Positions 5,260 through 37,828 of a stretch of 41,247 nucleotides of DNA are shown here, piece by piece. The DNA lies in the IMG/VR virus record IMGVR_UViG_3300020421_001472, positions 1-41,247 of that record; one strand, given 5' to 3'. The DNA is from a virus. The translations under genes were made by a program, and so were the position numbers. Within the stretch, counting starts at the first letter, position 1. The number at the start of each line of letters is the position of its first letter. The notes below the pieces were generated by a model that had not been told where the DNA came from, ran no database searches, and saw nothing but the letters and a program-made list of their open reading frames with translations.

Positions 5260-5747
5260 GTATTTCTATCGCCACCAAAGGTGGCAACAAATTTCAAAAG
5301 CATATAGTGACCCAGACTGCCAATTGGTGTCTGGGCCAACTTATGCCACGAATCAAAAAAATCTATATTGATATTCACCTACGCAACATCAAAGAAGCTG
5401 ATGGGTATTGTTCATGCGATTCGGTTGATGATGAAGATTTTGTGGGGCGTTCCCCAAGATCATTCACGTTGGAGATTGATAAATCTCTGTCTCTCACTGA
5501 GATGGTATCCACTACCATACACGAAATGGTTCATGTGAAACAATATGCGTTCTGTGAACTTAGAGATGTCAGTGCCAAGGCGAACGGTTGGAAGTCTCAA
5601 CTTGTTCCTTGCGAGGTGAAGTATGAAGACCAGCCGTGGGAGAAAGAGGCATATCGACTACAGGAAAAACTGTTGATGAAGTGTCTTGCTGAGGCAGTCT
5701 TTCAAACTGATGTTGACAAAAACGGATTCGCCCACACTCGTGTATAA
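5256..5747 (+). CDS. zinc metalloprotease-like protein with HExxH (163 aa)
   Basis: TTG 5256 is the likely start, with GAGGA nine bases upstream. A central helix TTIHEMVHVKQY holds the HExxH zinc and catalytic motif, and a second acidic helix follows (PWEKEAYRLQEKL), a candidate third ligand region. Four Cys (YCSCD, FCEL, PCEV) may add a structural site. The layout is like SprT/minimal gluzincin-type peptidases common in phages. The substrate is unknown. It is the last gene before a new promoter. Confidence 0.65.
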   Translation: MSISIATKGGNKFQKHIVTQTANWCLGQLMPRIKKIYIDIHLRNIKEADGYCSCDSVDDEDFVGRSPRSFTLEIDKSLSLTEMVSTTIHEMVHVKQYAFCELRDVSAKANGWKSQLVPCEVKYEDQPWEKEAYRLQEKLLMKCLAEAVFQTDVDKNGFAHTRV

Positions 5748-11747: not shown

Positions 11748-12723
11748 CTTTCAATGTTCCGTCTTTCTTCTTGATGTCATAAGCTCCAGATGGCATTCTG
11801 TCCGTGTTTACTTCCCAAGATGCGAGTGCTTCATCACCCAACGCACCTTCATATGGGCAAGGCGTTCCTGCCATCCTCATTGCGTTCCAGACTCTTTTAT
11901 CTTGACACATAAGAGATACTGCTGCAACTTTCATACCCATATCATACAAGGTTTTAGATAATTTTATTCTTTCGCAATTTAAGTCTCTTACTGACTTACC
12001 GGCTGCGAATCCAAAAATTTGAGTCTGCACTGCACCACTGATTCCAGTTGTGCAAAGGTCTTGAGAATAAGAGGAACCAATACTAGGCGCAATGGCACTA
12101 GGAGGCGGAGACTTGATTGTAGTCTCTGACTTGGTTATGTTTTCGTTCCTGTTGATGTTCTCGTTCTTTGTGTTTACGTTAGAGTCTGATTTACTCTCAC
12201 TGTAATTGTTGTTCGTGTTGTTATTGGTATTGTTGTTAGTATTATTACTAGTGCTGTTACTATTGCTATTACTGTTTACATTTTGATTGATATCAGATGT
12301 GCTGTTTGTGGTGCTGGTGTTGATATTGGTATTTGTGTTGTTGTTGGTGTTGTTACTAGTAGAAGTATTGATATTAGTGTTGGTATTGTTATTAGTGTTA
12401 TTACTGGTGCTATTGATAGTAGTGTTATTAGTATTAGTGTTGTTATTAGTATTGGTGCTGGTCGTAGTGTTCACATTATTATTGTTGTTAGTGTTTACGC
12501 TGGTGTTGGTGTTGACATTGTTATTTGTATTTGTAGAGGTGCTAGTATTCGTGTTCACATTTGTATTTGTGTTCGTGTTCGTATTGGTGTTTGTATTTGT
12601 GCTAGTGCTAGTATTGTTGGTGGTCGTATTGTTGTTTATGTTTGTGTCCTCAGCCAACGATACTGGACTCGACAACAATGCAATAGCGAATAATACATAA
12701 CAAAAGTGCTTAGTGAACCTCAT
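11668..12723 (-). CDS. secreted Asn/Thr-repeat protein with conserved Cys domain (351 aa)
   Basis: A signal peptide (FCYVLFAIALLSSPVSLA) is followed by about 160 residues made almost only of Asn, Thr and Ser. A compact C-terminal domain (about 220-351) has six Cys (DLCTTG, LNCERI, LMCQDK, TPCPYE, EFCARY, PICN). GAGAGGAAG precedes ATG 12723 on the minus strand. It is the first gene behind the late promoter at 12780. The low-complexity region could be a glycosylation-prone stalk or spacer. The C-terminal domain looks conserved in type among phage late proteins, but its function is unknown. Confidence 0.7.
   Translation of the reverse strand: MRFTKHFCYVLFAIALLSSPVSLAEDTNINNNTTTNNTSTSTNTNTNTNTNTNTNVNTNTSTSTNTNNNVNTNTSVNTNNNNNVNTTTSTNTNNNTNTNNTTINSTSNNTNNNTNTNINTSTSNNTNNNTNTNINTSTTNSTSDINQNVNSNSNSNSTSNNTNNNTNNNTNNNYSESKSDSNVNTKNENINRNENITKSETTIKSPPPSAIAPSIGSSYSQDLCTTGISGAVQTQIFGFAAGKSVRDLNCERIKLSKTLYDMGMKVAAVSLMCQDKRVWNAMRMAGTPCPYEGALGDEALASWEVNTDRMPSGAYDIKKKDGTLKDDPETDYNVYSKEEFCARYPKEPICN
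12165..12639 (-). repeat. low-complexity Asn/Thr/Ser-coding DNA
   Basis: On the plus strand this tract is almost only G/T with scattered A (GTTGTTGGTGTTG-type), and on the minus strand A/C-rich AAC/ACT/AAT codons. It is in frame with the secreted protein and has no stops in several frames, which explains long spurious plus-strand open frames. Slippage-driven length variation is likely. Confidence 0.85.
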
Positions 12724-12783: not shown

Positions 12784-12787
12784 TATA
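12780..12787 (-). promoter_or_regulatory. T4-type late promoter (TATAAATA) for the minus-strand operon
   Basis: Exact TATAAATA on the minus strand, 57 bp before the ATG at 12723. It should make the 12723-7300 operon late. A related GATAAATA lies on the same strand at 12825-12832. Confidence 0.7.
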
Positions 12788-16425: not shown

Positions 16426-17171
16426 AAAAGATTGCAATTGTTGGATATGGGTATGTTGGTAAAGCAACAGAACTGATGTTTGACAATCTTGAAGTCCTCA
16501 TACATGATCCTGATCTTGGTTATACCATTGATAATTGGGATGGTGTGGACTATGCGTTTATTTGTGTCCCGACACCTATGGATCAATCTGGTAGATTAGA
16601 CTTTTCTTATGTTGATAGTGCTTTACAGTCTATTGGTAATGGTAAGATTGTTATTAGAAGCACAATTGGCCCAGACCAAATGATTAATGATGAGTGGATT
16701 TATATGCCAGAGTTTTTGCGAGAGGCAACTTGGAAAGAAGATGTTGAAAATCCAAAGAGTCCTGTTGTAATAGGAATCAACGAGGAACTTCATCCTGTTA
16801 TCTGTCGTGATGATCTTGTTAGTGGATTGAAAGACCCACTGAAGACTGTTTATACAATGAAACCAAAAGAGGCTGCGATATATAAGTTGTCTCGCAATGC
16901 AATGTTAGCAACAAAAGTTGTTTTTGCAAACTATCTTTATGATGCTTGTGAATACGCCGAGTGCGATTTTGAAACTGTTATTGATACATTCAAATCGGAA
17001 AATGAATTTGGATCATCACATTGGGATGTGCCTGGCCCTGATGGTAAACGTGGATTTGGTGGTAAGTGTTTACCGAAAGATACTAGTCACTTTGCCCATG
17101 TAATGTCAAAACATTTTTCACCACCCAACTTTTTAAACTTTGTATTGAAGGACAATGAGCTCACCCGTTAA
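16422..17171 (+). CDS. short UDP-glucose/GDP-mannose 6-dehydrogenase (249 aa)
   Basis: The N-terminal Rossmann fold starts IAIVGYGYVGKA. A CVPTPMD strand and the central-domain catalytic cysteine motif GFGGKCLPKDTSHF follow, so the NAD-binding and catalytic parts of the UDP-sugar dehydrogenase family are present. Family members usually exceed 380 residues. This one ends soon after the catalytic Cys and lacks the C-terminal nucleotide-sugar domain. It could work with a partner, or with the full-length paralogue at 30205. It overlaps neighbours on both sides. Confidence 0.8.
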   Translation: MKKIAIVGYGYVGKATELMFDNLEVLIHDPDLGYTIDNWDGVDYAFICVPTPMDQSGRLDFSYVDSALQSIGNGKIVIRSTIGPDQMINDEWIYMPEFLREATWKEDVENPKSPVVIGINEELHPVICRDDLVSGLKDPLKTVYTMKPKEAAIYKLSRNAMLATKVVFANYLYDACEYAECDFETVIDTFKSENEFGSSHWDVPGPDGKRGFGGKCLPKDTSHFAHVMSKHFSPPNFLNFVLKDNELTR

Positions 17172-18447
17172 ATACTATAAGGAACTACAAAAGAGATATG
17201 ATAAGGTAGGGCCTGGATTCTGTGTCTTGAAGTGGCATCACTTGGAGATGCACCTCGGCTCAGCGCAGAGTCATTCTTGTTTTCATTGTCCTCAAAGACA
17301 TCTAAGTTTGGATGAAGATTTACACAACACCAAACAAAAGATGGAACAGAGAAAAGACATGTTGGAAGGTGGGAGACCAGCAGAGTGTTTTTACTGTTGG
17401 AATGTTGAGGACAGTGGTTCTATTAGTCCACGCATTGCATTGACTCCGATATACACGGAGATGGAACCCGACATTATTGAAACCACTGCTAGATTAAAGT
17501 GGGATGAACCCGTGTATCCAAAATATCTGGAGATGAGTTTCAGTAATAAGTGCCAGATGAAATGTAGTTATTGTTCCACGCAGAACAGTTCTTCTTTACA
17601 CGAGGAGATAAAAAAGTTTGGTGTATATCCTTTACTCAATATTGAAAACGAAGGTCAATACAAATCTCACGGCCGAGAAAATATGTATGATGAAGGTAGT
17701 CCCATGTATGATAAGTTTTGGGATTGGTTTGAAGAGGCGAAGAATCATCTGAAAGTTCTGAGGGTAACTGGTGGTGAACCATTGTTACACGAGAGCACAT
17801 TCAAACTTGCAGAGATGATCAAGGACACTGATATTGCCTTTCATGTTAATAGTAATCTTTCTATATCACAACGCAGAGTTGATAGGATGATAAAAACGAT
17901 GAGACAAATGAAAAACCCCAAAGTATATGCAAGTATTGACACGGTAAAAGAACAAGCGGAGTGGATTAGACATGGTTTGAATTCTAACACGTTTGATATA
18001 AACATGTTCAAAATTATTGGTGAACAAATTCCCATTGGTTTGATGGTCACTTTTAATTTTTTGAGTATTCCTAAGTCCAAAGAGTTCTTGAGTTATATAT
18101 TACAGTTGAAAAACATTGGTGATGTAAAACTTGATACTCCTTACATGACAAACCCAAAACATTTATCTGCTCTTATAACTGATGATAAGATGTTGAACTT
18201 ACTCCGTGACTCCGAGAGATTCATGGAAGACAACACCGAAGATGGTAACCCGAAAAAATTTAATTCTGGTGAATTACAAAAATTCAAAACTGTTGTTAGG
18301 TGGGTAGAACAAAATAGGTTCACTGGTGAAGACCTAAATAGTCATAGAACCGATTTTAAATTATTTATTGATGAACACGACAGACGCAGAGGCTCCGACT
18401 GGCATGCTGCGTTCCCAGAATTGGAATATTTTTATAATGCCATATGA
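17155..18447 (+). CDS. radical SAM protein 1 with N-terminal twitch/SPASM-like domain (430 aa)
   Basis: The core cluster motif is C133-x3-C137-x2-C140 (NKCQMKCSYC), followed by VTGGEPL, the SAM-binding GGEP. An N-terminal cysteine domain (C23, C42, C45, C78, C81, with CFYCWNVED) could hold an auxiliary Fe-S cluster, like SPASM/twitch domains but placed before the barrel. It belongs to subgroup A with the next two proteins. Family knowledge: such enzymes cleave SAM to start radical chemistry on peptides, sugars or nucleosides. The substrate here is unknown. It overlaps the dehydrogenase by 17 bp. Confidence 0.85.
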   Translation: MSSPVKYYKELQKRYDKVGPGFCVLKWHHLEMHLGSAQSHSCFHCPQRHLSLDEDLHNTKQKMEQRKDMLEGGRPAECFYCWNVEDSGSISPRIALTPIYTEMEPDIIETTARLKWDEPVYPKYLEMSFSNKCQMKCSYCSTQNSSSLHEEIKKFGVYPLLNIENEGQYKSHGRENMYDEGSPMYDKFWDWFEEAKNHLKVLRVTGGEPLLHESTFKLAEMIKDTDIAFHVNSNLSISQRRVDRMIKTMRQMKNPKVYASIDTVKEQAEWIRHGLNSNTFDINMFKIIGEQIPIGLMVTFNFLSIPKSKEFLSYILQLKNIGDVKLDTPYMTNPKHLSALITDDKMLNLLRDSERFMEDNTEDGNPKKFNSGELQKFKTVVRWVEQNRFTGEDLNSHRTDFKLFIDEHDRRRGSDWHAAFPELEYFYNAI

Positions 18448-19816
18448 TAATGAACACTGGATTGAAGTTCTAAAAGAAAAACGTATAAAGATAAACGATA
18501 TTAGTCCTTCTTTCTGTTCGGCGAAGTGGTTACAGACAACCTTGATGTTACAGAATGGATACAACCATTCCTGTCACCACCCGTCACCCCATAAGATTCC
18601 TATTGCAGAGGTAAAAGAAAATCCTGCTGCGTTGCACAATAGCAACTATAAGAAACAACAACGTATCAAGATGATCAATGGAGAAAGACCCCGTGAATGT
18701 GATTACTGTTGGAGAATAGAAGACCAAGGTAAAGATCACTTCTCTGATCGACACTACAAAACTTCTGATTGGTGGGCATGGGATAAAGTTGATCTTATTG
18801 CAACCAGTAATCCGACTGATGATGTGTATCCAACTTACCTTGAGGTATCCTTCAGTAACGCATGTAACTTTGCCTGTGCGTATTGTTCGCCTGAGATAAG
18901 TTCAACGTGGATGAAGGACATTGAAAAGAATGGCGAGTATCCTGTGCAGTTTGGTTCGCACAATTTAGATTACCTCAAAGAGACAGAGAAGTTTCCTTAC
19001 AAACACTCTGACCCGAATCCATATGTTGATGCTTTCTGGGAGTGGTTTCCAGAAGCACTTCCTCACCTGAGAGTGTTTCGTATCACTGGCGGCGAACCTA
19101 CTATGAGTAAGGATGTATGGAAGGTATTAGATTACATATATGAAAACGCACAACCAGAACTGTCTATTGCAATCAATAGTAATCTTGGGACTGATCCTCG
19201 ACTGATTGAAAGACTTATTGAAGCTGTTCGCAAACTAGAGGGAAAAGTAAAACAAATAGAAGTATATACTAGTTGTGAGTCTATTGGTCAACAAGCAGAG
19301 TATGTCCGTGATGGTATTGATTATGGATATTGGTATTCAAACGTTCAACGTGTCTTGAATGAAACAAACTCAAACGTTGCCATTATGACCACTATCAACA
19401 TGTTGAGTCTGCCACGTTTTTGTAAATTTATTGAAGACATCATGGAACTGAGAATTGAATTTAACAAAGACCTCGCACACAATCGTGTTCCATTGAGTAT
19501 CAATTATCTTAGATTCCCCCCACACTTACAATGCACGTTGTTATCGCCTGTGACCAGAATTTCTTATGCTTCTGATATTGAAAACCTTGCAGAGTCTTGG
19601 TTGAAGTATTCTTCACCAGACAAGTTTGCTAGAATATATCTGGAGGAGTTTGATCAGATACAGAGGTTCTGTGAGTATTTGCGTATGACCCCAACTGCCA
19701 CAAAATACAGGGCAGACTTTGTAAAATTTATCAAAGAGTATGACGGACGCCGGGATAAAAACTTTAGCGAAACTTTTGTAGAATTTGCACATTTATTAGA
19801 GGATTGGGATGAGTAA
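18437..19816 (+). CDS. radical SAM protein 2, subgroup A (459 aa)
   Basis: ATG 18437 is preferred to 18368, which would overlap the previous gene by 80 bp. The core is C143-x3-C147-x2-C150 (NACNFACAYC), then RITGGEPTM. The N-terminal auxiliary ligands are C27, C46 in the His-rich block HSCHHPSPHKIP, and C88/C91 in ECDYCWRIED. SCHH replaces the CC of subgroup B, so a His may serve as ligand. The N-terminal block is nearly superimposable on the following paralogue, so the two arose by duplication and probably act on related steps. A weak ribosome binding site suggests coupling to upstream translation. Confidence 0.85.
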   Translation: MPYDNEHWIEVLKEKRIKINDISPSFCSAKWLQTTLMLQNGYNHSCHHPSPHKIPIAEVKENPAALHNSNYKKQQRIKMINGERPRECDYCWRIEDQGKDHFSDRHYKTSDWWAWDKVDLIATSNPTDDVYPTYLEVSFSNACNFACAYCSPEISSTWMKDIEKNGEYPVQFGSHNLDYLKETEKFPYKHSDPNPYVDAFWEWFPEALPHLRVFRITGGEPTMSKDVWKVLDYIYENAQPELSIAINSNLGTDPRLIERLIEAVRKLEGKVKQIEVYTSCESIGQQAEYVRDGIDYGYWYSNVQRVLNETNSNVAIMTTINMLSLPRFCKFIEDIMELRIEFNKDLAHNRVPLSINYLRFPPHLQCTLLSPVTRISYASDIENLAESWLKYSSPDKFARIYLEEFDQIQRFCEYLRMTPTATKYRADFVKFIKEYDGRRDKNFSETFVEFAHLLEDWDE

Positions 19817-21308
19817 AGAATTTGATTTGATAAAGTATCGACAAGACATCCTTGATACAAAGTCAAAAAGTTTCTGTGGTGCGAAGTGGTATAACGCCAC
19901 TACTTGGTTGGGAAGTGGAACTACTGCTTCTTGTCACCACCCACCAGCACACAAGATTCCACTGGAAGAAATCAAAGTAGACCCGTCTGCGATTCACAAC
20001 ACCCGTCATAAGAAAGCAATGCGTAAGATGATGCAACGTGGTGAACGTCCACGGGAGTGCGAGTATTGTTGGAAGGTCGAGGACATGGAGACTGATGCGG
20101 TCTCTGATAGAGTGTTCAAGTCTATCATCTATACAAATGAAGATTTGAAGAAAGCGCACGAGATGGATCACAACGAAAGTGTTGATCTAAAAACATTTGA
20201 GATTGCGTTTGATAGGACATGTCAGTTGGCTTGTTCTTATTGTAACGCATCGTTCTCTACAACGTGGGCGAAGGATATTACAAAGAACGGTGCCTATCAG
20301 AACATGGTGTCTGATGGTGCTGCTGCGTTTCAACAAGATGGTGCGTGGGCAGAACCATATGCAAAGGATGAAGAAAATCCATACATCAAAGCATTTTGGG
20401 ATTGGTGGGAAGAAGGACTCTCTGAGAGTTTAGAAGAGCTGCGTATTACTGGTGGAGAACCATTGATGTCCAATCAGGTGTGGAAATTGTTTGATTGGTT
20501 CAACAACAATGACAGTGATATGAGATTTGCAATCAATTCAAATCTGATGGCAAAAGACAGTCTTATTGATAAACTGATTGAGAAAAGTGAGGGCATTGAT
20601 AATCTTCACATATACACATCTTGCGAGGCAACTGGATTACAGGCAGATTATATTCGTGACGGACTTCATTATGATACATGGAAAAAGAACATGTATAAAG
20701 TCATGGACTATGGTAATCTAAAAGGTTTGAACATAATGATGACAATCAATAGTCTCTGTCTTTTCAGTATTACAGAATTTCTTGATGACGTATATAAGAT
20801 GAAGATTCATACTGGAACAAAGGCTCCTGTTGTTAGTGTAAATCTGTTGCGGTTCCCAAGTTTCCAATCACCTCTTGCACTACCAGATCATATCAAAGAT
20901 TACTTGCGAGAGAAATTAGAAACGTGGTATAATGAAGTAAAGGATCAACCACTATGGCATGATTTTGAAAAGGCAAGTATTGAAAGATTGATTGACTATC
21001 TTATAACAGTTGATGCACCTCATAGACGAACCAGTGACAAGACAACTTTGTGGAGAGACTTCAAAACATTTTATGCACAGTATGATGAAAGACGAAACTT
21101 GTCTCTGGGTGTGTTTCCAAAAATCTTAACTGATTGGGTTGATACTATACCAGACACAGAAACTATTCCCGTGAGTCTTGTTGATGGTGATAGCACCAAA
21201 CAGTATGCAGATGATCCAGACTTGAAAAAGATTGCAGATGAAGAAGGATGGGTATTGAAACCAGATAATAAAAACATAGATATACCTCTTGGAGATTATG
21301 ACAAATGA
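19809..21308 (+). CDS. radical SAM protein 3, subgroup A (499 aa)
   Basis: The core is C138-x3-C142-x2-C145 (RTCQLACSYC), then RITGGEPLM. The N-terminal auxiliary set is C23, C42 (SCHHPPAHKIP) and C84/C87 (ECEYCWKVED), matching paralogue 2. This copy is the longest of the seven, with an extra C-terminal acidic tail of roughly 40-50 residues (VSLVDGDSTKQYADDPD). The tail may bind a partner or be a remnant of another domain. It overlaps the P-loop kinase start by four bases. The substrate is unknown. Confidence 0.85.
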   Translation: MSKEFDLIKYRQDILDTKSKSFCGAKWYNATTWLGSGTTASCHHPPAHKIPLEEIKVDPSAIHNTRHKKAMRKMMQRGERPRECEYCWKVEDMETDAVSDRVFKSIIYTNEDLKKAHEMDHNESVDLKTFEIAFDRTCQLACSYCNASFSTTWAKDITKNGAYQNMVSDGAAAFQQDGAWAEPYAKDEENPYIKAFWDWWEEGLSESLEELRITGGEPLMSNQVWKLFDWFNNNDSDMRFAINSNLMAKDSLIDKLIEKSEGIDNLHIYTSCEATGLQADYIRDGLHYDTWKKNMYKVMDYGNLKGLNIMMTINSLCLFSITEFLDDVYKMKIHTGTKAPVVSVNLLRFPSFQSPLALPDHIKDYLREKLETWYNEVKDQPLWHDFEKASIERLIDYLITVDAPHRRTSDKTTLWRDFKTFYAQYDERRNLSLGVFPKILTDWVDTIPDTETIPVSLVDGDSTKQYADDPDLKKIADEEGWVLKPDNKNIDIPLGDYDK

Positions 21309-21739
21309 AAATCTTAATCTTTGGACTGCCTGGCTCAGGTAAGACTACTCTAGCAAGAGAGTTATCGTATCACTTTTTGTTACCTCACCATAATGCTGAT
21401 GTATACAGAGAGAGATTTATTGATTGGGATTTCTCACATAGAGGCCGAGAACGTCAAGCGCTTCGTATGTCACAACAGTGGGGAATCTTAGATTTTGTTT
21501 GTCCTACAAACGAGTTCCGAGAAATAGTAAATCCAGACTACACTATCTTTATGAACACGATACATGAAGGTAGATTTGAGGATACAAACAAAGTATTTGA
21601 ACAACCTATATCGTGTGATTGTGAGATAAAAAAATGGATAGAACCAAACCAACTACGCAACTCCTTGGCAGATTTCAACCGTGGCATAGAGGGCATACAG
21701 AACTTTTTGAAAGAGCGATTGAACATACTGGCCAAGTAG
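21305..21739 (+). CDS. adenylylsulfate-kinase-like P-loop kinase (144 aa)
   Basis: The Walker A motif GLPGSGKT is at residues 7-14. The APS-kinase-type features DWDFSHRGRERQA, LDFVCPTNEFRE and GRFEDTNKVFEQP follow. Such kinases make PAPS from adenylylsulfate and ATP. Related small P-loop kinases in phages may instead phosphorylate a nucleoside or sugar. Its last 106 bp are also the first 106 bp of the next gene in another frame, an unusually large overlap. A link to nucleotide activation with that neighbour is likely. Confidence 0.75.
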   Translation: MKILIFGLPGSGKTTLARELSYHFLLPHHNADVYRERFIDWDFSHRGRERQALRMSQQWGILDFVCPTNEFREIVNPDYTIFMNTIHEGRFEDTNKVFEQPISCDCEIKKWIEPNQLRNSLADFNRGIEGIQNFLKERLNILAK

Positions 21740-22029
21740 TTATCATGTTACGGGAAACGGAAGAAAGTGAAACCGACCCATTGACTTTTGATGAACGAAA
21801 ATCTATTATTATAAGACACCTAGCAGAACGAGGATATGAACACAAGATACTATATGAGATTATCAGTGTTCCAAATATCACCCATATTACATATGGCAGA
21901 AATGTTGGTTACAAAATAGAAAAAGAAGAACTTGGAGAAGAATTGGAAAAGATATCTGGCACAGAAGAAAGAACTACTTTTTCTACGTTGCGTGATTACT
22001 GGACAAAGGGTGGACGCCACCACCCATGA
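21634..22029 (+). CDS. NMN-adenylyltransferase (NadM)-like nucleotidyltransferase (131 aa)
   Basis: The signature GRFQPWHRGH (residues 12-21) is the (H/T)xGH nucleotide-binding motif in the form typical of NadM/NadR. ISGTEER (about residues 108-114) matches the ISxTxxR motif that binds ATP phosphates. At 131 residues it is a little shorter than cellular NadM. The likely reaction is transfer of AMP (or CMP) to a phosphorylated substrate, possibly NMN to NAD. It overlaps the kinase by 106 bp, with its active-site motif inside the overlap. The pair could mimic the NadR kinase/adenylyltransferase combination or activate an unusual sugar. Confidence 0.75.
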   Translation: MDRTKPTTQLLGRFQPWHRGHTELFERAIEHTGQVVIMLRETEESETDPLTFDERKSIIIRHLAERGYEHKILYEIISVPNITHITYGRNVGYKIEKEELGEELEKISGTEERTTFSTLRDYWTKGGRHHP

Positions 22030-23318
22030 AGTATTTTTGTGCAGCACCGTGGACTCATACATACGTTTCCCCACAAGGTGAACGTAGACTTTGTTGTGCT
22101 AGCAGAGAAGAAGCATCTTTCCAAAAACAGTATATTGATAGTGGAACCGCAGAGGGAAAGTTTGAACCAGTATCATTAGAGAAACATTGGAATAGTGACT
22201 ATATGAAAGACATTCGCAAGAGGATGTTGAACGGAGAAAAACTATCGCAGTGTGATGTGTGCAACGATCAGATATTGAACTTACACACATATAGAAAATA
22301 TTTTACTGAGACACTATTCCCACATAAGATTGATGATCTTGTTGCAAATACTAGAGAAGATGGACACTATGATCCGATGCCCATCTCTTATGATTATCGC
22401 ATATCTAACCTATGTAACTTCAAGTGCCGCATGTGTGGTGAACAATTGTCTTCTAGTTGGGAAACAGAAAAAAAGAAACATGATCTCATTGATGTAAAAC
22501 AAGAACCGTGGTTAGAACCGAATACAAGAAAGTCTATTTCTAAATTTCAAGTAGAAGTGTTAGAAGAAGAACTTCAACGTGCTGTTGATAACAAAACGAT
22601 TGAGGAAATTTATTGGGTTGGTGGTGAACCACTGATGTTTGAACGTCACTGGACTATCATGCAACAACTGGTTGACAATGGACATGCAAAGAATGTAACG
22701 GTTCGATATAATACAAATCTGAGTCGAGTCAAATATAAAGACTACAATCTGTGGGACATGTTACCACACTTCAAGAATGTAAACATATGTGCCAGTATTG
22801 ATGGCGCCTATGAGGTAGGTGAGTTCATCCGTGATGGGTTGAAGTGGGACGAGTGGATACAGAACTTTGAGTCTGGTATGTTTCTTATAGACCAGTTTGG
22901 TGATGATGCGATGGTGTTCGATGTAACTCTTACAACGCCAGGCCTACTTCACTTGAAAGACCTTTTTGATGTGGCATGGGAACTTGATGTAAAATCATAC
23001 TTCAAGTTCACTTTTGCATTTGATCCGTCTGTTGTAATGAGTCCGATGTGTTTACCAAAGAGTGTATCTAAACCACTGTGTGAAGATATGATATCATACT
23101 TTGAAAAGAAGAAGACATGGAAGAATAGAGTATACATAGAATCTTTGAAGAACTTGATAAATAGGAAATCCTTTGATGAAGAATGGCCTGATACATATAG
23201 TGATGCGTTAAAACGTGGAAAAGAATTCCAACAATTTTTAGATAAAATAAGAAATACAAAATTAACTTTTGAGGACACTCTCTATGGTAATGCCTTGGAG
23301 TGGTGGAATAATATATGA
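22026..23318 (+). CDS. radical SAM protein 4, subgroup B (430 aa)
   Basis: The core is C130-x3-C134-x2-C137 (NLCNFKCRMC), then WVGGEPLMF. The N-terminal domain has the SPASM-like order C5 (FCAAPWTH), C23-C24 (RLCCAS) and C76-x2-C79 (QCDVCN), with a G-x-x-R-x-x-C-C turn as in classical SPASM domains. It is the first of four subgroup-B members. It follows the nucleotidyltransferase with a four-base overlap. SPASM-type proteins usually modify peptides or ribosomal products, but sugar-acting members exist. No precursor peptide gene is evident nearby. Confidence 0.85.
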   Translation: MKYFCAAPWTHTYVSPQGERRLCCASREEASFQKQYIDSGTAEGKFEPVSLEKHWNSDYMKDIRKRMLNGEKLSQCDVCNDQILNLHTYRKYFTETLFPHKIDDLVANTREDGHYDPMPISYDYRISNLCNFKCRMCGEQLSSSWETEKKKHDLIDVKQEPWLEPNTRKSISKFQVEVLEEELQRAVDNKTIEEIYWVGGEPLMFERHWTIMQQLVDNGHAKNVTVRYNTNLSRVKYKDYNLWDMLPHFKNVNICASIDGAYEVGEFIRDGLKWDEWIQNFESGMFLIDQFGDDAMVFDVTLTTPGLLHLKDLFDVAWELDVKSYFKFTFAFDPSVVMSPMCLPKSVSKPLCEDMISYFEKKKTWKNRVYIESLKNLINRKSFDEEWPDTYSDALKRGKEFQQFLDKIRNTKLTFEDTLYGNALEWWNNI

Positions 23319-24580
23319 GTGATACTTTTTGCCCATTGCCGTGGAACCACTTAGCAACACACCCACATGGTGTTTGCACTCTCTGTTGTGAGTCTGAACA
23401 GACTGATGGGATGTCTCAAGCATTTAATGATACTGTGCCAAGAACTTTGATATCACTTCAGAATGTAGATGACTTTGAAGAAATTACAAACTCGGATAGT
23501 TTCAGTCGTGTAAGAAAACAAATGTTGAACGGCGAAAAACCTGATGAGTGCCGAAAGTGTTGGGACTTGGAGAGTGTTGGTGTTCATAGTAAAAGATATT
23601 ATGAAAGTCGGCGTGTTCCGATGGATATTGAACATGCAAGAAAAATTACAAATGAAGATGGCACACTAAATGAAGTTGAGTATGAATTTGTTGAACTGAG
23701 ACTAGGCAATCATTGTAACGTTCAATGTCGAACATGTAATCCATACTCAAGTTCTCGGTGGAACAAAGAGTGGGATGTTATCTATCCAGAGAGACCAGCA
23801 CTACCAAACATGATGGTGCAGAGTAATTTCAACTGGCCTTTAGATCAGGGTTTCTGGGACAAACTTATCAAACGATGTGACAAACTGAAAGTGTTATATA
23901 TCAACGGTGGAGAACCATTCATTGTTGACAAACACATGGACTTCCTTTCTACACTTGTTGAACGTGGGTTGTCAAAGAACGTTGAGATTGTTTATTCTAC
24001 TAACTGCACTGTTATAAACAAAAATTACGAAGACGTATGGAAAAACTTTAAACACATTCAGTTTATGTTGTCGATTGATGATGTTGGTGAAAGAAACGCT
24101 TACATAAGAACATATACAAAGTGGGAAAAGGTATTGGAGTTTGTTGATTGGATGATGAGTATGTCCGCTCGATTCAAAAACATTGATTATAATATCTTAC
24201 AGACAGTTTCTACATATAACGTTTATTACATACCAGAATTTTATGACTTCTTCAAGGACAAGGTGCCTTTGATAGGACATCCACTAGAAGATGACTCTTT
24301 GCACATTGGACATAACTTTGTAAATGATCCAGAACACTTTGATTGTAGAATACTTCCTAGAGAAGTTAAAGATATAATTATAAAAAGATTGGAGGGGTAT
24401 CAGGGATACAATGATATCAAAAATTATTTCAGTGTTGATGGTGAAAGTAGGTGGGGTGGTGCCGTTCATGGCAGTATGAAAACTTTCTTTGAGAAGACTC
24501 GTGCGATGGACAGTCTTAGAAACCAATCTTTTGAGGAGACCTTTCCTGAGTTGTATGAACTGGTGAAGGAATATGAGTAA
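23315..24580 (+). CDS. radical SAM protein 5, subgroup B (421 aa)
   Basis: The core is C134-x3-C138-x2-C141 (NHCNVQCRTC), then YINGGEPFIV. The N-terminal cluster is C6 (FCPLPWNH), C21, C24-C25 (CTLCCES) and C79-x2-C82 (ECRKCW). It is similar in length and order to paralogues 4 and 6, and overlaps each by a few bases (ATGA-type coupling on the left). The extra Cys at position 21 is specific to this copy. Enzymatic target unknown. Confidence 0.85.
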   Translation: MSDTFCPLPWNHLATHPHGVCTLCCESEQTDGMSQAFNDTVPRTLISLQNVDDFEEITNSDSFSRVRKQMLNGEKPDECRKCWDLESVGVHSKRYYESRRVPMDIEHARKITNEDGTLNEVEYEFVELRLGNHCNVQCRTCNPYSSSRWNKEWDVIYPERPALPNMMVQSNFNWPLDQGFWDKLIKRCDKLKVLYINGGEPFIVDKHMDFLSTLVERGLSKNVEIVYSTNCTVINKNYEDVWKNFKHIQFMLSIDDVGERNAYIRTYTKWEKVLEFVDWMMSMSARFKNIDYNILQTVSTYNVYYIPEFYDFFKDKVPLIGHPLEDDSLHIGHNFVNDPEHFDCRILPREVKDIIIKRLEGYQGYNDIKNYFSVDGESRWGGAVHGSMKTFFEKTRAMDSLRNQSFEETFPELYELVKEYE

Positions 24581-25826
24581 AAAGGTTAGTGACCCCATCA
24601 AACTAAAAATCAAGAACGACAACCTTTGTATCATACCTTGGGTTCATTTGCACACATGGCCAAATGGATCAACATACCCCTGTTGTATGACCCCAATGGA
24701 ACATATCGCTGGTGACTTGAACAAACAGTCAGTAGAGGAGATATACAACAGCGATTTGATCAAGAAGCTTCGTTTGGAGATGTTGGACAACAAGAGACCA
24801 GAGAGTTGTTCTCGTTGTTACGTTCAAGAAGATTGCGGCGCACATTCGTTTCGTATGAGTGCAAACAGAGACTTCAATGGACATGAAGACTTAGTAGACT
24901 CCACCAATCCAGATGGTTCAGTTGATGAGACTCGGTTGGTGTATTGGGATTTTCGTTTTTCTAACATTTGCAATTTCAAATGCCGAAGTTGTGGCCCACA
25001 GTTGAGCACTGGTTGGTATGGTGATACAAAGAAGATTGCAGAGATGGAAACTGGTGAGAAGTTTTTACCCAAAGATATCCCCGCTCAAGTTCATTTTGAT
25101 TTGTGGGAACAGATACAACCATACTTTGATGATGTAGAAATTATCTACTTTGCCGGTGGAGAACCTTTGATCATGGAGGAACACTATCGTATCTTGAAAA
25201 AACTTGATGAGATGGGAAGACATGATGTTGAGATAAGATATAATACTAACTTCAGTGAGATGCGATACAAAGACTTGCACGTTCTGGAATACTGGCCCAA
25301 GTTTAAGAATGTTAGTGTTGGTGCTAGTATTGATGGCATGTTTGAACAGGGCGAACTTATTAGAAGTGGATTCAAGTGGGATCAGTTTGTTAGTAATAGA
25401 AGACAGATGCAAGAACTGTGTCCTCATGTTGACTTTTATGTAAACTGCACTGTTAGTGTTCAGAATGCTTATCATGTTATCGACTTCCATCACAAACTTG
25501 ATGAACTTGGTTTGATTGATGGTTTGGATAAGTTTCATGTGAATCCTGTCATGGAACCGCCGCACCTAAGTCTTCCTGTTTTGTTAGACAGTATGAAACG
25601 GGAGTTGTCTGATACATATGATGAACATGTTATATTGTTAGAGTCCCGTGGATTTCATGCTGTTGCAAATGATTTCAAATCTCTGCGTGATTTTATGAAC
25701 TCCGAAAACAAACAAGACTTGATACCAGTATTCTTGTCAAAAATGCAGACCCTTGATATAATCAGAAACGAGAACTTTTTTAGAACCTTTCCCGAACTGG
25801 AGGCTCTTGTGCATGAAAAAATATGA
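24573..25826 (+). CDS. radical SAM protein 6, subgroup B (417 aa)
   Basis: The core is C133-x3-C137-x2-C140 (NICNFKCRSC), then FAGGEPLIM. The N-terminal SPASM-like domain is the most canonical of the set: C19 (LCIIPWVH), C37-C38 (YPCCMTP), a GDLNKQSVEEIYNS turn and C79-x2-C82. The GDL...I-N-S segment is the hallmark linking this N-terminal module to C-terminal SPASM domains of other families, so the module appears permuted in position. It overlaps the methyltransferase gene by 14 bp. Confidence 0.85.
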   Translation: MSKKVSDPIKLKIKNDNLCIIPWVHLHTWPNGSTYPCCMTPMEHIAGDLNKQSVEEIYNSDLIKKLRLEMLDNKRPESCSRCYVQEDCGAHSFRMSANRDFNGHEDLVDSTNPDGSVDETRLVYWDFRFSNICNFKCRSCGPQLSTGWYGDTKKIAEMETGEKFLPKDIPAQVHFDLWEQIQPYFDDVEIIYFAGGEPLIMEEHYRILKKLDEMGRHDVEIRYNTNFSEMRYKDLHVLEYWPKFKNVSVGASIDGMFEQGELIRSGFKWDQFVSNRRQMQELCPHVDFYVNCTVSVQNAYHVIDFHHKLDELGLIDGLDKFHVNPVMEPPHLSLPVLLDSMKRELSDTYDEHVILLESRGFHAVANDFKSLRDFMNSENKQDLIPVFLSKMQTLDIIRNENFFRTFPELEALVHEKI

Positions 25827-26388
25827 GGATATTAGGAGCATGTCTAAGGAGTGGGATTTCCACGAACTAACTGAGATGCTCCCTCAAAGTGGATTTCTAT
25901 TAGAAGTAGGTTCCTTTTTAGGAAAGTCTGCGGTATGTTGGGCTAAGACTTTTGAGGATCAAAATAAAGTTTGGGACATACACACTGTAGATGTGTTTTT
26001 GGGTATAACTGATCCAAGAAAAATGTCTGACATGCAATTTAATTCGGAAGACGAGAGAAAATCTTTCATAAATTACATGGATCAGTTTGTCATGTCAGGG
26101 GAAGAACAATTGAAAGAGTTTCAAGAGAATATTTCTGGTTGGGGAAATATAACTTGGCAAAAAAAATATGTTGACGGCAACTATGTTCCCCCCAAAAAAC
26201 CAGATGCCATGTTTTATGATGGTGGACATACTTATGATAACATGAAATCAATTTTTAATGTTCTTGGGGATATTCCTTTCATCTTTGTAGACGATTGCAC
26301 CGATAGATTCCCAGAAACACTTCAAGTCATAGAAGAATTAGACAGACCCTTTGAAATTAAAAACGGTATGGGAGTTATTTGTGGATAA
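25813..26388 (+). CDS. class I methyltransferase, Methyltransf_24-like (191 aa)
   Basis: ATG 25813 is preferred to the TTG six bases earlier. The SAM-binding strand-loop FLLEVGSFLGKSAVCWA, the acidic strand end HTVDVF and the later DAMFYDGGHTYDNM are typical of the TylF/CmcI-like methyltransferase group that O-methylates sugars and antibiotics. VDDCTDRF fits the metal-binding strand. It sits between two radical-SAM genes, so methylation of the same product is likely. Its A-rich codon use (long AAA runs) differs a little from its neighbours, a possible sign of separate acquisition. Confidence 0.75.
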   Translation: MKKYEDIRSMSKEWDFHELTEMLPQSGFLLEVGSFLGKSAVCWAKTFEDQNKVWDIHTVDVFLGITDPRKMSDMQFNSEDERKSFINYMDQFVMSGEEQLKEFQENISGWGNITWQKKYVDGNYVPPKKPDAMFYDGGHTYDNMKSIFNVLGDIPFIFVDDCTDRFPETLQVIEELDRPFEIKNGMGVICG

Positions 26389-27550
26389 GATTTGTATTCT
26401 GCCTTGGATTCATACTGAATTTACAACAGAGGGAACCGCAAAACCCTGTTGTTTATATCGTGGCGATCCTATGGGTAACTTGAAAGAGGAGAGTCTTCTT
26501 GATATATGGCACGGAGAGAAGTATAATGATCTCCGCCAACAATTTCTTGATGGAAAACAACCAAAGGGTTGTGCCATGTGCTGGCAGAACGAAGATGCTG
26601 GATACAAGTCAAAGAGATTACAGGACAACGAGAAATTTATTTCTCACTGGCAAAAAACACAAGAGAACGTTCCCTCGCCCCCAGTTTACCTTGACTTGAA
26701 GTTCGGCACCCTTTGTAATCTCAAGTGTCGATCATGCGGTAGTGTCAATTCATCTAGTTGGAAAACGGATGAAAAATTAATTTATGGTAGAGTCCTTGAT
26801 AACAAAGATGCTCTGTGGGTCAAAAAGAATCCAGACATCTGGGACGAACTTGATAAGATCATGCACACCGTAGAACATATGGATTTCACTGGTGGTGAAC
26901 CATTTATGATAGAACAACACTTTGACTTGTTAAGACATGCGGTAGAGTCTGGATATGCGAAGAACATTTCTATTCATTATAACACAAACGGAACGATACG
27001 ACCACCGAAAGAAATTTTTGATCTGTGGAAAGAGTTCAAGCATTGTGAAGTGATGTTCAGTATTGATGGGACATTCAAGAAATTTGAATACATTCGCAGT
27101 GGTGCAGTGTGGGATGAAGTGTGGGCCAACTTCAATCACTTCAAGTCCCATGAATTTTTGAGTATACAGATATGTCACACTGTTAGTATTTTCAATGCTT
27201 ACTACCTTGAAGAATTTGTAAACCAGTTTGAGGGAACAAACATTTATTTCAATCTATTACACTTTCCTAGACAGTATTGTATTAGGAACATGCCAGATTA
27301 CTGCAAAGAAAAGGTTCGTGAAAAAATTATAAATATTCCAAACGCTGATGCCATTGTGAATTTTATGATGCAAGAGGCAGAGTTTGATCATTTAGACCTT
27401 GGGTTTTTTCCAGTGACGGAAAAACTTGATAAGGTGAGAGAAGAAGACTACAGCAAAACGTTTGCTGAATTTTATGAGATATTGATAGATGGCGGAATCA
27501 GAAACAGACCTTGGGAGAATCCAGACCTTATTAGAGCGGGTTCTATTTGA
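26381..27550 (+). CDS. radical SAM protein 7, subgroup B, GTG start (389 aa)
   Basis: GTG 26381 is chosen because GGAG (26370-26373) is seven bases upstream and the protein then starts MDKICILPWIHTE, aligned with its paralogues. The longer ATG start (26351) would read into the methyltransferase. The core is C112-x3-C116-x2-C119 (TLCNLKCRSC), then FTGGEPFMI. The N-terminal ligands are C5, C23-C24 (KPCCLY), a GNLKEESLLDIWHG turn and C64-x2-C67 (GCAMCW). It has the shortest linker between the two cysteine modules. It overlaps the next gene by 62 bp. Confidence 0.85.
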   Translation: MDKICILPWIHTEFTTEGTAKPCCLYRGDPMGNLKEESLLDIWHGEKYNDLRQQFLDGKQPKGCAMCWQNEDAGYKSKRLQDNEKFISHWQKTQENVPSPPVYLDLKFGTLCNLKCRSCGSVNSSSWKTDEKLIYGRVLDNKDALWVKKNPDIWDELDKIMHTVEHMDFTGGEPFMIEQHFDLLRHAVESGYAKNISIHYNTNGTIRPPKEIFDLWKEFKHCEVMFSIDGTFKKFEYIRSGAVWDEVWANFNHFKSHEFLSIQICHTVSIFNAYYLEEFVNQFEGTNIYFNLLHFPRQYCIRNMPDYCKEKVREKIINIPNADAIVNFMMQEAEFDHLDLGFFPVTEKLDKVREEDYSKTFAEFYEILIDGGIRNRPWENPDLIRAGSI

Positions 27551-35113: not shown

Positions 35114-35142
35114 TTGACATTTGCTTATAAGTATAGTATTAT
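35114..35142 (+). promoter_or_regulatory. sigma-70-type promoter of the TTGACATTTGCT family
   Basis: TTGACA (35114-35119), a 17-bp spacer and TATTAT (35137-35142). It starts with the same TTGACATTTGCT as the promoters at 586 and 3767. It drives the nuclease gene at 35168. Confidence 0.8.
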
Positions 35143-35167: not shown

Positions 35168-35839
35168 ATGTTTAATCATGTAACGGGGATTGAGTTCCCC
35201 ACCTTAGTCCGTGAAAACTTTGAAGGGAAGCGGATGTATAAAACCGAGGGTGGTGATAGATTTCCGTCTGTCACCACCGTTCTCGGCCACAAATCTAAAC
35301 CCGCTATCAAAGCATGGCGAAAGAAGGTCGGTGCTGAAACTGCGAACAAAATCAGTAAACAGGCATCTGTGCGTGGAACAAAAATTCATTCATTGTGTGA
35401 AGATTATGTCAACAATGAAGAACTAGATTTTGACAAATTATCCTTTGTTGAAGTTGATATGTTCAATCAAATGAAACCGTTGATTGATCGAATTGATAAC
35501 ATTCATTGTGTAGAACAGTTTCTATACAGTGAACATCTCCGTCTTGCCGGTCAGGCAGACTGCATTGCTGAGTTTGATGGTAGACTTTCTATCATTGATT
35601 TTAAGACATCAGCAAAACTCAAAAAGAAATCATATATCAAGAATTACTTTGCTCAGTGTGCTGCGTATGCAATCATGTTTGAGGAAAGAACTGGTATTCC
35701 GATTGATACCTCAGTGATTATTATTGGTGTTCAGGCAGAAGAATCTCAACTTTTTGTCGAAAAACGTGATAATTACACAGAATATCTGCTAGAATGTCGT
35801 GATTTATACGAAGAACAGGTATTGACATCTGCTGCCTAG
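35168..35839 (+). CDS. Cas4/RecB-like PD-(D/E)XK exonuclease (223 aa)
   Basis: The nuclease core is visible: RGTKIHSLCE (the H of the RecB-family first motif), GQADCIAEFD (D131) and SIIDFKTS with the D144-x-K146 pair, then a tyrosine helix YFAQCAAYAIMFE with the Q-x3-Y motif. These are the motifs of PD-(D/E)XK exonucleases related to Cas4, RecB and AddB. Four Cys are present (LCEDYV, HCVEQF, DCIAEF, QCAAYA), but not in the C-terminal cluster arrangement of an Fe-S domain. It acts on DNA in the cytoplasm, probably in replication or recombination. Confidence 0.85.
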   Translation: MFNHVTGIEFPTLVRENFEGKRMYKTEGGDRFPSVTTVLGHKSKPAIKAWRKKVGAETANKISKQASVRGTKIHSLCEDYVNNEELDFDKLSFVEVDMFNQMKPLIDRIDNIHCVEQFLYSEHLRLAGQADCIAEFDGRLSIIDFKTSAKLKKKSYIKNYFAQCAAYAIMFEERTGIPIDTSVIIIGVQAEESQLFVEKRDNYTEYLLECRDLYEEQVLTSAA

Positions 35840-35855
35840 TGTGGTATTATAAATA
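35822..35855 (+). promoter_or_regulatory. overlapping sigma-70 and T4-late promoters of the tmRNA
   Basis: TTGACA (35822-35827), a 17-bp spacer and TATTAT (35845-35850) form a host-type promoter inside the end of the nuclease gene. TATAAATA (35848-35855), an exact late promoter, overlaps its -10. Both would start transcription at about 35857-35862, right at the 5' end of the tmRNA acceptor piece. Confidence 0.8.
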
Positions 35856-35860
35856 CATAA

Positions 35861-36122
35861 TCGGTCGTTGAAGTGGACTGAAAGGTTGTAGGACGGGAGT
35901 GCGATTCTCCCCACCTCCACCATAAGGCCATCCATGATAACTGAACAAGCCATGGGTGGTTTTATGATGGGGGTGAACAGGTTCGACTGCGATTGTATAG
36001 GATAAACCGAGACTGATTGACTGGCAAAGCGCCACCTAAAGTAAACGCAAACGATGACGTTTATGCTCTAGCCGCTTAAGGCTAGTGGGGTATGGGCTCC
36101 ACCTTATTATCCAACGGGCCCC
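35861..36122 (+). ncRNA. ssrA: permuted (two-piece) tmRNA with tag ANDDVYALAA
   Basis: The 3' half comes first: GGAC, T arm GGGAG-TGCGATT-CTCCC (35895-35911), acceptor strand CACCTCC (35912-35918), discriminator A and CCA (35920-35922). A 46-base spacer folds as a 9-bp stem (35928-35936 with 35951-35959). The 5' half begins GGGGGTG (35969-35975), which pairs over all 7 positions with CACCTCC, including the G3-U70 alanine identity pair, and continues AACAGGTTCGAC. The tag frame GCA (36047) to TAA (36077-36079) encodes ANDDVYALAA. The stop sits in the loop of hairpin CTAGCC/GGCTAG (36068-36085). TCGGT (35861) can pair with ACCGA (36006). The downstream end is approximate. The RNA would rescue stalled ribosomes with host SmpB; no smpB is seen here. 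Confidence 0.93.
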
Positions 36123-36145
36123 TTACAATAGAAAGGAGAAATCGA

Positions 36146-36676
36146 ATGGATGTCCAAGAGATTTTAACTTATGTAATTGGAAGTTTGTTATTACTAGTCC
36201 CAGCGACTAGTGACCCTAGACCACCTCTACAAGAAGTTGTGGTAGAGGCTGAGAAAAGAGTGATTTTGAATAAACAGGATGTTGCTTGTTTATCCAAGAA
36301 TATTTATTTTGAAGCCCGTGGTGAGGATACTGAGGGACAGATTGCGGTAGCGCATGTCACTTTGAATAGAGTTGAACATAAAAACTTCCCGAATACTATT
36401 TGTGAAGTTGTTCATCAAGCAAAAGTATGGGATGGTCATCCTGTCAGATATAAATGCCAGTTTTCTTGGTATTGTGATGGTAAGTCTGATGAGATACACG
36501 ATTGGCGTTCTTATCATGCAATAACCGAAGTCGCCATGGGGGTGTTGTTGGGTGATATTAAAGATAACACAGGCGGTTCGACATTCTATCATGCAAATTA
36601 TGTCAAACCAGATTGGTCTAACCACATGGCAGTTGCGGTAATACATGATAAACACATATTCTACAGGATGCGTTAG
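36146..36676 (+). CDS. SleB-like cell-wall hydrolase (176 aa)
   Basis: ATG 36146 follows AAAGGAG. The frame upstream (to 36092) is tmRNA and should not be counted. A signal anchor (ILTYVIGSLLLLVPA) is followed by the Hydrolase_2 (SleB) domain: LSKNIYFEARGEDTEGQ with the catalytic Glu56 region, VAHVTLNRV, CQFSWYCDG and GGSTFYHANYVKPDW. These enzymes cut peptidoglycan glycan strands. In a phage this is a likely lysis or entry enzyme acting in the periplasm. It follows the tmRNA by about 24 bp and may share its transcript. Confidence 0.9.
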   Translation: MDVQEILTYVIGSLLLLVPATSDPRPPLQEVVVEAEKRVILNKQDVACLSKNIYFEARGEDTEGQIAVAHVTLNRVEHKNFPNTICEVVHQAKVWDGHPVRYKCQFSWYCDGKSDEIHDWRSYHAITEVAMGVLLGDIKDNTGGSTFYHANYVKPDWSNHMAVAVIHDKHIFYRMR

Positions 36677-37566
36677 TGTCAACACATAATTTTATCGTTA
36701 CTGGTGGATGTGGTTTTATAGGTTCACACCTCACAGAAGCATTGATACTACACGAACAAAATGTTCTTGTTATTGATGATATGAGTAAAGGTAAATACAA
36801 GATACCTCACAAAAATGTGTCGTATCTTCATCAAGATGTGGCGGATGTATTTCCTACTGGTCAGTTTGATGCTATATTTCATCTGGCTGCAACTCCACGA
36901 GTAAGGATGTCTCAGGAACAACCCCACCAGACAATCAAGAATAATATGAATACCACTCTTACGGTATGTGAGTGGGCTAGACAGTTGCGGATACCTATAT
37001 TCTTTGCCGCATCGTCTAGCACACAGTTCTCATCTAAGAAGTCAAATCCATATACTTTTAGTAAGAGTATGTCAGAAGACATATTAGAATTGTATTCTAG
37101 GCTTTACAAAGTCCACTATCATATGTTATACTTCTATAATGTATACGGGCCACGAGAAGCAGACTACGGAGAATATAGCACCGTGGTAAGAGCTTTCAAA
37201 AAATGCGTTGAGAATGATGTTCCCCTCAGAGTATTTGGAAGTGGTAAAAAAGAAAGGGACTTCACTCACATATATGATGTAATTGACGGCATATTGAAAC
37301 TGTTAAGTGAAAAAAAGAAACCCCAACACATTCATTTGGGTAGGGGTAATCCAACTAGTGTATTAGATGTTGCAAAGGCATTTGGTCACCCTATGGTTCA
37401 CGAGTTTGATAAGCCGGGCGAAGCTGAAATGACTTATTGTGAGAAACCGTTTTATGATTGTGAATATGATGTTGTTCGATATATCAAAGAATGGAAAGAA
37501 GAATTTTTAAGATCAACTGTGGAACAACAATTGAAAGAAGTGGATGAAAAACATGCCAAAATCTGA
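36676..37566 (+). CDS. NAD-dependent nucleotide-sugar epimerase/dehydratase (296 aa)
   Basis: GTG 36676 overlaps the SleB stop by one base. The extended-SDR features are VTGGCGFIGSHL at the N-terminus (NAD binding), DVADVF, FHLAATPRVRMSQEQP, the active-site pair YTFSK (Y-x3-K) with SSST before it, YNVYGPRE, and RVFGSGKKERDFTHIYDV. This is the GalE/UDP-glucuronate-decarboxylase-type family, so it probably interconverts a UDP- or GDP-sugar. It sits away from the sugar island but may serve the same pathway. Substrate not determined. Confidence 0.9.
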   Translation: MSTHNFIVTGGCGFIGSHLTEALILHEQNVLVIDDMSKGKYKIPHKNVSYLHQDVADVFPTGQFDAIFHLAATPRVRMSQEQPHQTIKNNMNTTLTVCEWARQLRIPIFFAASSSTQFSSKKSNPYTFSKSMSEDILELYSRLYKVHYHMLYFYNVYGPREADYGEYSTVVRAFKKCVENDVPLRVFGSGKKERDFTHIYDVIDGILKLLSEKKKPQHIHLGRGNPTSVLDVAKAFGHPMVHEFDKPGEAEMTYCEKPFYDCEYDVVRYIKEWKEEFLRSTVEQQLKEVDEKHAKI

Positions 37567-37828
37567 AAAAGAAAAAGTATCGTCTGATGAGTTCTTGATA
37601 ACTAATCAACAATTTTCCAGTGCTACAGAGTTCTCTCAGCACATAGAACGCAAAGCAAGTATAGGACAGAATTATATTGATGTCTTGACCGACTACTGTG
37701 TTCGTAATGAAGTAGAGATTGAAAGTGTCAAGAAACTATTGACCCCATCGCTCAAGGAGAAGATTGCTGCTGAGGCACAGAACCTAAATCTGTTGAAAGT
37801 CAAGGCTGCACCTAAACTGCCGATATGA
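37544..37828 (+). CDS. 33: gp33-like late transcription coactivator (94 aa)
   Basis: ATG 37544 (or 37553) overlaps the epimerase end. The C-terminal half has the gp33-type segment YIDVLTDYCVRNEVEIESVKKLL, SLKEKIAAEAQNLNLLK and a final LPI, which in T4 binds the RNA polymerase flap and links late-promoter sigma gp55 to the sliding clamp. This fits the NATAAATA promoters in the window. Its place next to gp59 is the T4-like order. The assignment is from recognition of the pattern. Confidence 0.8.
   Translation: MKNMPKSEKEKVSSDEFLITNQQFSSATEFSQHIERKASIGQNYIDVLTDYCVRNEVEIESVKKLLTPSLKEKIAAEAQNLNLLKVKAAPKLPI

Follow-up and report, generated by a model that had tools for sequence, protein, structure and literature searches.

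A circularly permuted tmRNA gene and a candidate early and late promoter in a marine T4-like phage

Two-piece tmRNAs encoded by circularly permuted ssrA genes are already known from marine T4-like phages. That of phage Melnitz was published in 2022, its authors placed the gene behind an early promoter, and of the 53 two-piece phage tmRNAs in the accompanying census, 50 came from marine or aquatic samples (PMC9004378). Tags encoded by ssrA commonly end in LAA, and binding sites for ClpX, ClpA and SspB are present in the E. coli tag AANDENYALAA (PMC9382460). The late promoter consensus of T4 occupies positions -13 to -6 (PMC1524935). Here we describe a permuted ssrA gene in a viral record from IMG/VR, a linear fragment 41,247 bp long whose whole length is called the window below. 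The original prediction of this gene had stressed the oddity of its tag and T-loop, a striking reading that is mostly unsupported. The newer detail is a putative overlap, in front of ssrA in many related phages, of an early promoter of host type with a late promoter of phage type.

By direct reading of the sequence, a complete circularly permuted ssrA occupies 35861-36122 on the plus strand, and all the features that had been named in predicting a complete gene are present (Table 1). ARAGORN also reports a permuted tmRNA with the tag ANDDVYALAA, and the covariance search that had been proposed as a check gave a match to Rfam RF04321 of 99 bits (E 3.1e-18; cut-off 47) with the model start at 35863. 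The betaproteobacterial model RF01850 matches as well, reaching 36127, at a score of 84.9 bits that is barely over its cut-off of 84. As proposed, the two acceptor strands pair at all seven positions and include G3-U70, and the stop codon of the tag frame, whose resume codon is GCA, lies within a 6-bp hairpin formed by CTAGCC and GGCTAG. The 46-nt length of the spacer and the presence of its own stem had also been read correctly, but the stem is 14 bp long including G-U pairs, not 9 bp (-17.4 kcal/mol, z -3.9).

Table 1. Positions in the window of the permuted ssrA gene, its putative promoter elements and its neighbours
Feature	Position	Strand	Basis
PD-(D/E)XK-type exonuclease, upstream neighbour	35168..35839	+	phrog_298, E 1e-76
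TTGACA, putative sigma70-type -35 box, inside the last exonuclease codons	35822..35827	+	promoter scan, 11/12 match, spacing 17
TATTAT, putative sigma70-type -10 box, 3-nt overlap with the late octamer	35845..35850	+	promoter scan
TATAAATA, putative T4-type late promoter element	35848..35855	+	motif, fixed distance from acceptor
5' acceptor piece (start region, T-arm, 3' acceptor strand, encoded ACCA)	35861..35922	+	RF04321; near-invariant in 6 same-clade sequences
T-arm GGGAG-TGCGATT-CTCCC	35895..35911	+	T-stem covariation
Acceptor strand CACCTCC (35912-35918) and ACCA (35919-35922)	35912..35922	+	U70 pairs with G3
Intervening spacer with hairpin, predicted to be excised	35923..35968	+	folding; relatives
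Second (mRNA-like) piece	35969..36125, 3' end approximate	+	RF01850 match; alignment
5' acceptor strand GGGGGTG	35969-35975	+	start of second piece
D-like region GGTTCGAC, then tag frame and pseudoknot	within second piece, 35969..36125	+	
Tag frame GCA AAC GAT GAC GTT TAT GCT CTA GCC GCT TAA (ANDDVYALAA and stop)	36047..36079	+	ARAGORN
Hairpin CTAGCC-GCTTAA-GGCTAG around the stop codon	36068..36085	+	stem unchanged in all same-tag relatives
Predicted H-type pseudoknot	36085..36121	+	GTGG 36085-36088/CCAC 36099-36102; GGGC 36094-36097/GCCC 36118-36121
Cell wall hydrolase (SleB-like), downstream neighbour	36146..36676	+	PF07486, E 2e-24
gp33, late-transcription coactivator	37544..37828	+	phrog_254, E 3.5e-19

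The genes flanking ssrA are T4-like (PhoH, exonuclease, gp33, gp59 and gp32), and the gp32 of the window is closest to those of Melnitz and HTVC008M (54%). The window ssrA lies between the exonuclease and gp33-gp59-gp32, the position held by the Melnitz and Mosig genes, and synteny across the viral loci identifies gp33 as a conserved neighbour of phage ssrA. Judged from this gene content and order, the phage is a marine T4-like phage of the Kyanoviridae type and its ssrA is a positional orthologue of the Melnitz and Mosig genes. The longest frame of the downstream hydrolase begins at 36092, and a good ribosome-binding site precedes the start near 36146. Elsewhere in the window, a run of seven radical SAM-like genes (17155-27550), unusual for a phage, is interspersed with methyltransferase- and nucleotidyltransferase-like genes; the radical SAM-like calls are based on CxxxCxxC-type motifs recognised by eye, two of them checked against Pfam.

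A scan of viral contigs for an acceptor strand, a gap and a partner strand returned at least 120 stretches, and at least some 80 of these are permuted tmRNAs according to ARAGORN. The identical tag was found by two scans in six viral contigs besides the window, among the matches listed. As far as these contigs reach, they have the gene order PhoH, exonuclease, ssrA, hydrolase, epimerase, gp33, gp59, gp32, with 73-96% protein identity to the window at the locus genes and 46-86% for the hydrolase. The mature RNA is almost invariant across this same-tag clade and the spacer is hypervariable (12-84 nt). Stop codons vary among TAA, TAG and TGA while the tag is identical throughout, a pattern that suggests translation of the tag. 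In 73 distinct viral loci the T-stem covaries, single positions showing as many as four standard pair types, and acceptor position 3 is G-U in all 73, most of which were found through this acceptor. A C-G pair in the 3' pseudoknot of the window becomes U-A in L342 and L412, one compensatory change, and U-G in L015 and L430. Both the covariance match and the acceptor pairing kept in related phages bear out the predicted gene, and the window with its relatives forms a further, well-supported clade of phage permuted tmRNAs.

The spacer hairpin was considered as a conserved functional element and rejected, as its length and sequence vary and it is absent from one relative (L402). It is dispensable, because one relative has an unstructured spacer of 12 nt. 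Direct BLAST searches against named phages gave short acceptor-side matches only. An unannotated permuted tmRNA (RF04321, 95.8 bits) was also seen at 1494-1878 of the locus L122 from Achromobacter phage JWDelta (KF787094.1), with a spacer of about 200 nt and a tag, ANDDYIRLAA, that was read by eye, as ARAGORN misplaces it; a similar stretch occurs in Axy11 phages.

The T-loop TGCGATT, thought unusual in the original prediction, is instead the commonest in the viral set (18 of 84 among the matches listed). The sampled bacterial permuted genes mostly carry GGCGGTA or GGCAGTA, and the window has TGCGATT in place of the GGCRGTA that is typical of the sampled loci of alphaproteobacterial type (alpha_tmRNA, RF01849). 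A G at T-loop position 55 is ordinary in this group because TGCGATT is the commonest loop and the alphaproteobacterial GGCRGTA has the same G. TGCGATT also occurs in one bacterial locus, L290, whose tag is of alpha type. Like the betaproteobacterial permuted tmRNA (RF01850), the window gene is permuted, with a GGGGGTG/CACCTCC acceptor and a short tag ending in ALAA, but it scores just over the cut-off and lacks the final stem of that model, its CCA is fully encoded, and its T-loop is not TTCGATT. A placement in the alpha or beta lineage was attempted from Rfam scores and trees. By score the window and L015 come out as beta, and the relative L342, Melnitz and Mosig as alpha. Trees of ssrA, based on about 150 nt with one beta reference and no cyanobacterial reference, place the window with weak support in a phage-only group, apart from the sampled alphaproteobacterial-type genes.

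The tag had been described as gamma-type and out of place in a permuted gene. It does occur in gammaproteobacteria, as ANDDVYALAA is present in 106 bacterial genome contigs, mostly from Lysobacterales and other gammaproteobacteria among the record titles listed. It is much less of an oddity than had been claimed, since short tags are found with permuted genes and are common among those of phages, including ANDERFALAA in a betaproteobacterial-type locus (L243) and ANDNVYALAA, ANDEVFALAA, ANDSQFALAA and ANESYALAA in viral permuted tmRNAs. The ssrA genes of Lysobacterales and other gammaproteobacteria share the tag of the window but have the standard gene form, with 86 confirmed as one-piece tmRNAs and none of the 106 contigs permuted. 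Gene transfer from gammaproteobacteria was rejected on the grounds that the confirmed bacterial carriers are all one-piece and that the tags found at this locus in relatives are quite different. Convergence is the likelier explanation of the match, because short ALAA tags occur in permuted genes and orthologues vary the tag freely. The window tag starts with alanine and has a ClpXP-type LAA end. SspB mainly contacts the opening four residues and the tyrosine of the tag, and ANDDVYALAA keeps these. Long tags, for example ANAFKPEVTVPMSVFADQELVAA and ANKRALGFADLTVGMSKLRLAA, were seen in phage permuted tmRNAs such as those of the viral loci L037, L033 and L038; these mostly have TTTAAATA or CTTAAATA upstream and are probably of cyanophage type.

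Upstream of the window ssrA, a sigma70-type promoter appears to overlap a T4-type late element. With TATAAATA at -13 to -6, the late +1 would be 35861, the 5' end of the RNA. Of 83 unselected loci (among the matches listed), 16 have this octamer 62-67 nt before the acceptor strand, whereas its density across these loci predicts 0.046, and some of the unselected loci have TTTAAATA or CTTAAATA at that position instead. When gaps of 43-73 nt were allowed, 65 of 72 confirmed loci, and 40 of 46 distinct tags, fell at 62-67 nt. Among 55 distinct ssrA upstreams, 51 have a -35 box (at least 5/6, spacing 14-22), in 39 cases at a spacing of exactly 17. This set was chosen for TATAAATA and its related sequences are non-independent; the control value was 9.8% of 307 other TATAAATA sites. 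TTGAC followed by A, T or C occupies the equivalent position at most of the related ssrA loci, and such a promoter is absent from 35 of 75 unselected ssrA upstreams. A plain sigma70-type TTGACA-17-TATTAT without a late octamer precedes the exonuclease gene (35114-35142), in contrast to the ssrA promoter. On the minus strand, TATAAATA at 12787 lies 64 nt before the gene 11668-12723, which encodes an asparagine/threonine-repeat protein, possibly a late structural one.

The chances seem to us about even that this is a purpose-built composite promoter, with shared or overlapping sigma70 and gp55-type -10 elements, that would supply tmRNA from early to late in infection. The region may instead be a plain sigma70 early promoter in which TATAAATA is a variant -10 box and ssrA is expressed early only, an explanation that we regard as rather unlikely. 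It would account for the sigma70 spacing of the -35 box, for the early promoter called by the Melnitz authors (PMC9004378) and for the few ssrA loci with plain TATAAT, and, since TATAAA by itself makes a fair sigma70 -10 box, the presence of the late element could in part be incidental. However, among the -10 octamers of 462 other sigma70-like promoters at these loci, TATAAATA accounts for only 1.7%, and cyano-like loci hold TTTAAATA or CTTAAATA, both poor sigma70 boxes, in the same place. The window and its six same-tag relatives have a separate TATTAT at a spacing of 17-18, yet keep TATAAATA 3 nt further on, which suggests two elements kept apart and both retained; Melnitz has a fused form of the sigma70 -10 box and TATAAATA. 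If the composite promoter is real, ribosome rescue would be a continuous phage function and not the early one proposed for Melnitz. This timing prediction departs from the published early-only idea, and cultured Melnitz suits a test of it.

The window ssrA is very probably a functional circularly permuted tmRNA that works in rescue. It would be transcribed early by host RNA polymerase and late by the gp55/gp33/gp45-modified polymerase from a start at about 35861, host tRNA-processing enzymes would cut out the spacer to give a two-piece tmRNA, and charging with alanine would depend on G3-U70. A search of 14 phage records, including three complete genomes, found no SmpB gene, so the tmRNA would use host SmpB in rescuing ribosomes that stall on broken messages, and such stalling should be common while host mRNA is being destroyed. 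Products to which AANDDVYALAA is added would be degraded, probably by host ClpXP, and the phage would gain a steady supply of free ribosomes after host ssrA is shut off or degraded. The role suggested in the original prediction, in ribosome recycling and the turnover of tagged proteins, is thus far a plausible one, and a phage tmRNA beside that of the host could also be retained for another reason.

The RNA might, for instance, act as a decoy or modulator that competes with host tmRNA or SmpB, or that redirects tagged proteins by a different tag, rather than adding rescue capacity. A tag-less tmRNA of phage DS6A is reported to inhibit the endogenous tmRNA of E. coli (PMC11915505), so a phage tmRNA can have a negative effect, and the window tag is unlike the sampled alphaproteobacterial tags. 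We nevertheless consider such a role improbable, as the tag frame is unbroken and, with its changing stop codons, under selection, no structural part has been lost, and the tag ends in the common LAA motif (PMC9382460). It is barely credible that the gene is a functionless host fragment left at an attachment site by imprecise prophage excision, even though tmRNA genes are common integration sites, prophages carry ssrA fragments, and temperate-prophage exchange was suggested as a possible origin by the Melnitz authors (PMC9004378). The gene is complete with its own putative promoter, many divergent phages carry it at this one position between exonuclease and gp33, with changes that preserve its structure, and the ssrA tree places it in a phage-only group. 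The conserved locus and the covariation thus disfavour an attachment-site relic, and in many marine phages ssrA appears to be a stable component of the gp33 region, maintained by selection, and no stray remnant of a host gene.

The Melnitz (MZ577097) and Mosig (MT647606) ssrA genes resemble that of the window in being permuted and two-piece and in lying between a PD-(D/E)XK nuclease and gp33. Their tags, ANDNYVPVDYALAA and GEDNFALAA, differ from that of the window, and their best model is alpha_tmRNA rather than beta_tmRNA. Melnitz has a glutamine riboswitch just downstream of ssrA, whereas none was found in the window by an Rfam scan; a manA RNA motif (RF01745, 64 bits) lies downstream of ssrA in Mosig (5309-5516 of locus L125). 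Melnitz, like the window, has TTGACA-17-TATAAATA upstream of ssrA, whereas no such promoter precedes the Mosig gene. We found no report of overlapping early and late promoters on ssrA in the literature searched. Overlapping early and late promoters, with a proposed middle mode, have been described in the T4-like phages RB49, S-PM2 and Syn9, where they stand on homologues of T4 middle genes (PMC2984593), whereas the candidate promoter described here stands on the non-coding ssrA.
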